A program made the translations under genes and the position numbers. Below, piece by piece: positions 2,182 through 34,615 of a stretch of 34,784 nt of DNA; the stretch's first letter is position 1; every line of letters begins with the position of its first letter. The DNA lies in assembly GCA_017510425.1 (NCBI GenBank), contig JAFWNJ010000004.1, forward strand, positions 1 to 34,784, in the 5' to 3' direction. The stretch comes from Candidatus Saccharimonadota bacterium (GTDB lineage: Bacteria; Patescibacteriota; Saccharimonadia; Saccharimonadales; Saccharimonadaceae). A model generated the notes under the pieces. It did not search any database. It was given only the letters and a program-made list of their open reading frames with translations, and was not told the DNA's origin.

Positions 2182-2312
2182 CACTATATAATTCATCAAT
2201 ATCGAGGGACATAAAGGCAAAATCTTTGATTTTGCCGCCGTAGGGGCGGAGCGATGTGGTAAAATGTATTACCACATCGCGCAGCTCCCGAGATATGATG
2301 AATTATGTAGTG
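2182..2312 (+). repeat. Family A structured repeat, copy 1
   Basis: It fills the gap between the convergent ends of sbcB and ldh. Outer arms 2182-2197 and 2297-2312 pair over 16 bp with one G-U. After a bulged A comes ATATC/GATAT, then a GA/GA internal loop, then GGGA/TCCC. Two hairpins sit inside: a 9-bp stem with a TTT loop (GGCAAAATC, from 2216) and a 12-bp stem (GCGATGTGGTAA, from 2251). The core matches the copy at 18284-18418 with only four differences over about 98 nt. This could be a mobile palindromic repeat, a bidirectional terminator-like element or a structured RNA; no protein is encoded. Confidence 0.85.
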
Positions 2313-5257: not shown

Positions 5258-6475
5258 ATGGATCCAACAAACAATTCAACACCAACACCTAATCCGTCGC
5301 CAACACCTGGACCGTCGCCTGTGCTAAACCCAGTGTCGCCAGTGAATCCCACTCAGCCGATTAATCCTAGTGTGTCTGCTTTTGAACCTGCTGCTCCAGC
5401 TCCGTCGAATACTCCAGTTAGTCCCGTTCAGCCAGCTGCTCCGGTTCAGCCAGCTGTTCCAGCGCAGTCGTCTGGTTCTTTTGGTCAACCAGTGGTGATG
5501 CCTACGCCTCAGCCTGTTAGCTCTACTAATCCTTCGTCTGTGGGCCATGTTTTCAAGCCTGCAGGTGTGGGTGTGGCGGCTACTGAGCCAATAATGATGC
5601 CAGAACAGCCAAAGGCACCGGATCCAATCGAAGAAGAGCTAAAAGCTCCGATGAAAGCTGCGGCTCCAGCTCCTGGCTCAATTGGTTCGGCCGTGTCTGG
5701 TCCTTCTGAAGGTTCGGCTGCGCAGGCCCCTGAACCTAATCCTGCCATTAATCCTTTTCAAACACCGCAGGTCTCAGCTAAGACTACAACACCTAACGTA
5801 TCGTTTACCGATCCCGCAATGCAACCCGATGCGACAAATCCGCAATCTAGTAATGTTAAGCCAGCAAAAAAGAAAACTAGCAAGAATACTTTGATAGCTT
5901 TAATTGTGGTTGCGGTGATGGTGATTATTGCGCTAGGAGCAGTGTTTGCAATGCAGTTTTTAAATTGGCCGGGTTCTGGTGACAACTCTGGTTCGGGTGG
6001 CTCTAGCTCTAATTCTTCTAGCAATAGTTCTAACAGCAATTCGAACAGTAGCTCCAATAGTAATTCTAATAGTAACTCTTCGCAGAATGGTTCAAGTAGC
6101 AATAGTTCGAGTAATAGTTCGAATAGCGGTTCGAGTACGAATGGTGGTAGTACTAGCAGCAATGCAAGTACAGTCGTTTGTGCCGGGAGCTATAATTCTG
6201 ACACATTGGGAACAGTTTCACGAAGTGTTACTTTCTTGATCGAGGATAATAAACTTTCTAGTGCGACAGTTGAGACAAGTACGACGGATGAAAATGGTGA
6301 GACTAAGACTGAGAAGAAAACCATGAGTTCTTCTGAAATCTTTACTGATTCAACTCAATCGGATGAGACATTTGAAGCAGATGGAACCCTCAAGGTTACA
6401 CTTAGTGAGTTTGTCAAAAAAGCACAAGAATCCTTAAGTAGTGACACTGTTACATTCACTTGTCTAAGTAAATAG
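5258..6475 (+). CDS. Pro/Ser/Asn-rich single-pass surface protein
   Basis: I do not recognise a named family for this 405-residue protein. Residues 1-200 are rich in Pro, Ala, Ser and Thr with PTPNPSPTPGP-like repeats. A Lys-rich stop-transfer segment precedes one membrane helix at about 211-232. Residues 236-300 are a low-complexity Ser/Asn/Gly linker. A small folded-looking domain of about 100 residues then follows, with one Cys near its start (VVCAGSY) and one near the end (FTCLSK) that could form a disulfide. With no N-terminal signal peptide and basic residues on the N-side of the helix, the Pro-rich part should be cytoplasmic and the Ser/Asn stalk plus C-terminal domain outside. The Shine-Dalgarno GAGGA and an own promoter support the start. 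Confidence 0.7.
   Translation: MDPTNNSTPTPNPSPTPGPSPVLNPVSPVNPTQPINPSVSAFEPAAPAPSNTPVSPVQPAAPVQPAVPAQSSGSFGQPVVMPTPQPVSSTNPSSVGHVFKPAGVGVAATEPIMMPEQPKAPDPIEEELKAPMKAAAPAPGSIGSAVSGPSEGSAAQAPEPNPAINPFQTPQVSAKTTTPNVSFTDPAMQPDATNPQSSNVKPAKKKTSKNTLIALIVVAVMVIIALGAVFAMQFLNWPGSGDNSGSGGSSSNSSSNSSNSNSNSSSNSNSNSNSSQNGSSSNSSSNSSNSGSSTNGGSTSSNASTVVCAGSYNSDTLGTVSRSVTFLIEDNKLSSATVETSTTDENGETKTEKKTMSSSEIFTDSTQSDETFEADGTLKVTLSEFVKKAQESLSSDTVTFTCLSK
5985..6170 (+). repeat. Ser/Asn codon low-complexity tract
   Basis: Within the surface protein gene, AGT/AGC/TCT/TCG and AAT/AAC codons alternate for about 60 codons. The codons are varied, so the tract is not a simple DNA repeat and looks selected at the protein level as a flexible stalk. 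Confidence 0.75.
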
Positions 6476-6491
6476 ATGTTTTAGTGATTTG

Positions 6492-6527
6492 AAACAAGCT
6501 GTCTATGAACTGGCAGCTTGTTTTGTT
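6492..6527 (+). terminator. Intrinsic terminator
   Basis: Arms 6492-6501 and 6514-6523 form a perfect 10-bp stem followed by a short T-rich tail. The right arm also contains the -35 box of metG. Confidence 0.8.
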
Positions 6528-18283: not shown

Positions 18284-18418
18284 CTCATTAAGTAATTCAA
18301 TAATATCGAGGGACATAAAGGCAAAATCTTTGATTTTGCCGCCGTAGGGGCGAAGCGATGTGGTAAGATTTATTACCACATCGCGAAGCTCCCGAGATAT
18401 ATTGAATTGCTTAATGAG
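18284..18418 (+). repeat. Family A structured repeat, copy 2
   Basis: Arms 18284-18301 and 18401-18418 pair over 18 bp with one U-G. The bulged A, ATATC/GATAT pair, GA/GA loop and GGGA/TCCC pair are exactly as in copy 1. Inside, the 9-bp and 12-bp hairpins are conserved; in the second, the loop differs while both stem arms are identical. Outer-stem differences from copy 1 keep pairing: TC/GA became AT/AT, and A-T became G-C. It lies 12 bp after the glycosyltransferase stop. A further 6-bp pair (18274-18279 with 18429-18434) may extend the fold. Confidence 0.85.
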
Positions 18419-34501: not shown

Positions 34502-34615
34502 GATTTAGAATTATAGATTTTCTCGATCCGCTTCGCTCACGCCCGTCGTTACGGGGTTCGCTTGCTAGTTGCTCCCGTTGTTGCAAATGATCTCGAAAAT
34601 CCATAATTCTAAATC
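34502..34615 (+). repeat. Family B structured repeat, copy 2
   Basis: Arms 34502-34521 and 34596-34615 pair over 20 positions with one A-C mismatch. The arms have no similarity to those of copy 1. The core shares the 17-mer CGCCCGTCGTTACGGGG with copy 1, forming a CCCGT/ACGGG hairpin with a CGTT loop. A weaker second hairpin (TTGC/GCAA, around 34569-34584) follows. It lies 6 bp after the sortase stop. Confidence 0.75.

Follow-up and report, generated by a model that had tools for sequence, protein, structure and literature searches.

Do the paired arms of a repeat that occurs twice in this Saccharibacteria contig reflect selection on a folded RNA, or the behavior of a piece of DNA? The window, that is, the whole stretch of 34,784 nucleotides analyzed here, carries two plus-strand copies of the repeat. 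Copy 1 (2182..2312) lies between convergent exonuclease-like and lactate dehydrogenase-like genes, and copy 2 (18284..18418) between glycosyltransferase-like and leuS-like genes. An earlier note on this DNA had taken the compensatory differences between the two copies as direct evidence that the fold matters, as RNA or as DNA hairpin.

Anatomy and fold of the element

A repeat search of the window aligned 2181-2304 with 18285-18408 at 91% identity. Direct reading agrees with the earlier description on most points: the cores are near-identical (4 differences in about 98 nt), the outer stems are unlike yet paired (TC/GA becomes AT/AT, A-T becomes G-C), and the bulged A, the tandem GA/GA and both long hairpins are present in either copy. 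The core had been described as two-hairpin, which is right for the long hairpins but overlooks a small third one at 2237-2247.

The element is about 131-145 bp long and, read-through frames aside, has no open reading frame of its own. The core, about 90 nt comprising the junction and hairpins P2, P3 and P4, is enclosed by a long outer inverted repeat; the order of parts is outer stem P1 (16-25 bp), tandem GA/GA, four inner pairs, CAUAAA, P2, P3 with a GNAR loop, GNA, P4, GNAGC and then back. For copy 1, folding and pair counts place the left arm of P1 (the terminal inverted repeat region) at 2182..2203, its right arm at 2292..2312, P2 at 2216..2236, P3 (GCC GUAGG GGC, marked additionally by conservation) at 2237..2247 and P4, which also emerges from repeat comparison, at 2251..2280. 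Conservation in 108 copies marks the tandem GA on its left side (2204..2205; G 95%, A 97%) and right side (2290..2291; 92-99%), the unpaired CAUAAA junction (2210..2215; T and the last two A 99-100%) and the GNAGC junction (2281..2285; G 96%, A 100%, GC 98%). The corresponding parts of copy 2, read from its sequence, are the P1 arms at 18284..18307 and 18396..18418, P2 at 18320..18340 and P4 at 18355..18384, the last again with repeat comparison.

Folded as RNA, 2182-2312 reaches -67.5 kcal/mol (z -11.5) and, folded as DNA, -38.6 (z -9.0), with 0 of 200 shuffles equal in either case. In the 108 copies, conservation reaches 92-100% at most unpaired junction bases, against means of 77 to 89% for stem columns; because the junction is kept as the stems vary, some fold probably matters. 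The invariant junction bases suggest a fold that is recognized.

The GNA junctions at 2246-2252 and 2279-2285 of the window each lie inside a GCGNAGC heptamer, a motif known as an unusually stable DNA mini-hairpin. Some variant copies (L121, L123, L124, L111, L148, L130) have an additional nested hairpin within the loop of P2 or P4. Repeat comparison and sequence also revealed a second palindromic family of like architecture on the minus strand at 34502..34615, with inner hairpins, a 23-bp outer stem and a tandem GA/GA loop as in the first family.

Dispersal and insertion as DNA

The source genome (840 kb) holds six copies, four beyond the window pair. A covariance model built from 25 copies was run against related genomes, mostly metagenome assemblies. 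Of 174 species in this Saccharibacteria genus, 39 have copies; in 155 other sampled genera of the order the model had no match. Copy number varies among congeners from 0 to about 24, with 23-24 in four species. A pattern scan of named genomes matched five records of Candidatus Saccharibacteria; the names of four of these give a ruminant gut as the source. A sequence search for phage or plasmid matches to the element returned none and such an origin was dropped; six viral contigs carrying an 18-mer end pattern are about the number expected by chance according to our own estimate. Six loci (L134-L137, L022 and L038, from G116 and G055) have long left flanks that are alike (65-86% over 600-900 bp) and may therefore belong to a gene family or to a larger unit that is itself repeated.

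Comparison with related genomes shows insertion. At the site of copy 1, seven congeners have the two convergent genes close together and neither arm; the site of copy 2 is empty in one congener, and an empty site is known for a copy in G145 as well. Both arms belong to the insert in intergenic copies with known empty sites. In G159, near-identical recent copies have GGYCTTGTTGC inverted repeats at their ends. Over all copies, an exact 8-bp direct repeat at a single constant offset occurs nine times, against 0.05 expected; the nine cases span G159 and G116, and eight of them lie in G159 beside the GGYCTTGTTGC ends. No target duplication is visible at either window copy or at the G145 copy with known empty sites. 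Orientation relative to flanking genes is without bias (24/24/21/21 across four classes). The element thus has the features of a MITE, being short and free of a transposase gene, with terminal inverted repeats, direct target duplications, dispersed copies and empty sites. Two further arrangements were seen: 48-bp mini-hairpins consisting of P1 arms only (L156, about 637-690; G159:C5:10437-10485), one with the 8-bp duplication CTTTCGAA, and a composite of about 400 bp with a palindrome at each boundary (L163).

Copies also lie inside genes, namely truB (in G000, G116 and G144), dus, ychF and a methyltransferase gene, all in one shared sense frame with a conserved encoded peptide (the IEEHKGKI.DFAAEGAK frame), and insert-free versions of these genes are present in relatives. 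Inserts have lengths that leave the host reading frame intact, apart from rare exceptions that look like alignment ends. Translational bypassing was considered and judged unlikely, given these lengths and an open frame. The ychF copy has a right arm, CAAGCCTGCT, that belongs to the host and occurs in the insert-free gene of G103, and its left arm is the inverse of that sequence; the methyltransferase copy likewise has one arm of host sequence and its inverted copy opposite, as does the dus copy less clearly, so that host-derived arms are seen in three genes only, one of them weak. The truB, dus and ychF loops (L184-L213, L236-L277, L219-L228) are insertion hotspots throughout the genus, where several unrelated palindromic families sit in frame. 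One of these resembles the window element at 34502-34615, and similar in-frame inserts occur in dus and ychF of congeners.

How the arms change

The statistical test of covariation that the earlier note called for gave a clear result: over 25 copies, 93.7% of cells pair against 35-47% in slid controls, 32 of 46 pairs are doubly changed and 0 of 500 shuffles match. Conservation of the fold far beyond chance is therefore upheld, but the compensatory changes are no direct demonstration that the fold matters, and least so for an RNA fold. In P2-P4, 20 mismatches are G-U and 21 A-C, and in P1 46 are G-U and 23 A-C, a mild G-U excess (p 0.008), all counted on an alignment fitted to the model and over cells that are not independent events. 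That A-C is about as common as G-U in P2-P4 speaks against RNA selection, which should favor G-U. Seven within-genome pairs with near-identical cores differ at 8 of 622 core sites (1.3%) and at 70 of 182 arm sites (38%), and in 31 of their 39 altered arm pairs both bases have changed. The copies in G145 have 0 differences in 88-90 core sites, yet their arms differ and self-match. Change in the arms is blockwise and does not follow the core. Template switching during replication can make perfect stems, double changes and restored pairing in one event (PMC8794818), and it both creates and corrects hairpin arms (PMC8794818, PMC8604942). Covariation here is real but is not clean evidence for RNA selection, and the stem compensations seem for the most part to come from DNA copied between the arms and do not prove a working RNA.

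How far can other explanations account for these data? If each copy gave a four-way-junction RNA selected for pairing (a small RNA, a UTR element or part of a host mRNA), the strong pair conservation, the junction bases that stay invariant while stems vary, the G-U excess in P1 and the GNAR loop on P3 would all be expected. We consider this unlikely: neither Rfam threshold gave a match to a curated family, and a known RNA family was accordingly rejected; the consistent gene orientation and G-U tolerance of a cis-regulatory RNA were not found, apart from the P1 excess; and the random orientation, the parity of A-C and G-U in P2-P4, the copies within coding sequence, the blockwise alteration of arms and a copy number so variable among congeners all weigh against it. 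Bidirectional transcription terminators between genes are highly improbable, despite the convergent genes around copy 1, a P2 that is followed by TTTATG on the minus strand and a terminator-like score in both window copies, since the genes on either side of many copies are divergent or codirectional, some copies lie within genes, and a constant T run is missing from the outer stem.

The contrast between arms and core could also arise at the DNA level in other ways. Gene conversion among old copies would homogenize the cores and make arms seem fast and cores slow, as the G145 copies might suggest; however, about 90 bp of homology set in non-homologous flanks gives recombination little length to work with, and host-derived arms would be left unexplained, which makes this account quite improbable. 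Alternatively, the core might enter beside host DNA and snap-back-like synthesis make the second arm, an inverted target duplication. The host arms with inverted copies in ychF, the methyltransferase gene and probably dus fit such a process, as do the G145 copies, whose cores are identical and whose arms differ but self-match. Nevertheless, empty intergenic sites contain neither arm, the G159 copies bring identical arms to every site together with direct duplications, and template switching at a later stage accounts for these data too, so we regard it as rather unlikely. Also doubtful is a broader version, in which the outer stem is built from the target at insertion, each insert is the loop of a host-specific hairpin, and several unrelated tandem-GA families with common gene hotspots share machinery.

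We therefore favor as probable a non-autonomous, MITE-like mobile DNA palindrome that behaves like the Rickettsia palindromic elements (RPE) and whose arms are rewritten by template switching. Dispersal, insertion relative to empty sites, the terminal inverted repeats with 8-bp duplications of recent copies, random orientation and in-frame gene insertions are directly observed. The element would move as DNA into intergenic gaps and tolerant gene loops, and in genes it would be read through in frame. Insertion is most likely carried out by a transposase acting in trans, with the fold (tandem GA, GNA and AUAAA junctions) perhaps recognized by the mobility machinery as a DNA hairpin. Later template switching at the palindrome would most likely copy one arm, or neighboring host sequence, onto the opposite arm, and in this way arms and hairpins would remain paired despite sequence change. 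Several observations sit less easily with the mobile palindrome: the transposase searches yielded no autonomous partner, the window and G145 copies are without target duplications, host-derived arms are confined to three genes while intergenic copies bring both arms, P1 has its G-U excess, and junction conservation would fit an RNA fold too. Some fold probably matters, most likely to the element's own spread; the best explanation is a selfish palindrome whose cellular function is putative at most.

Mobilization, known systems and significance

Candidate transposases were searched for in carrier genomes. DDE_Tnp_1 was found in 0 of 11 genomes searched, IS240-type matches were weak and rare, and the Y1 transposase (PF01797) was present in 6 of 174 genomes; all three were rejected as partners. 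PF01797 of the RAYT type is absent from the source genome and from nearly all carriers, which speaks against a REP/RAYT assignment. Searches with PF01609, PF13610 and PF01797 showed no linked element with the ends expected of an autonomous parent, and a pair of end-like sites 2 kb apart in G159 was ruled out because they are located in ordinary genes. An autonomous parent, if it exists, would be an insertion sequence with ends GGYCTTGTTGCATAATTC and 8-bp duplications. One G159 copy (L116, about 6250-6500; G159:C28) lies immediately downstream of the apparent end of an IS30-type transposase. The GGYCTTGTTGC ends resemble those of IS5/IS903-type and IS6-type insertion sequences (GGCTTTGTTG / GGnnCTGTTGCA, with 8-9 bp duplications); carriers, however, have no matching transposase in the DDE_Tnp_1 and IS240 searches beyond the weak, rare IS240 matches.

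One close likeness is to the RPE (Ogata 2000, 2002), as far as the summary in PMC10969869 describes them: palindromes of about 130-150 bp, in several families within one genus of reduced-genome bacteria, inserted between genes and in frame in unrelated conserved genes with a conserved encoded peptide, as in truB, dus, ychF and the methyltransferase gene here. The comparison rests on architecture and behavior; model matches are confined to one Saccharibacteria genus in its order. RPE reportedly lose their repeat identity with age (PMC6649704), whereas the arms here change but stay paired; the host is unrelated to Rickettsia, and there are 8-bp target duplications. MITEs such as ERIC and Coxiella QMITE2, which has direct repeats of 7-11 nt (PMC5896051), are similarly short, mostly intergenic and without transposase, with terminal inverted repeats and direct repeats; in contrast, the present element has a branched core, an invariant junction and arms that differ between copies of one genome, and its parent insertion sequence is putative. 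Template-switch hairpins (PMC8794818, PMC8604942) share the double changes, the arm homogenization and the new arms from adjoining sequence; here the hairpin is a dispersed mobile repeat, and switching is read from comparison of copies, not from phylogenetic reconstruction of events.

The searched library yielded no paper on comparable elements in Saccharibacteria. The element appears to be an RPE-like coding-palindrome system outside the groups so far reported, in bacteria with very small genomes, and its inserts reach truB, dus and ychF. Dispersed copies can show textbook covariation that originates at the DNA level, and therefore covariation alone is no proof of a functional RNA. With many copies in related species, template switching and the insertion mechanism are directly testable.
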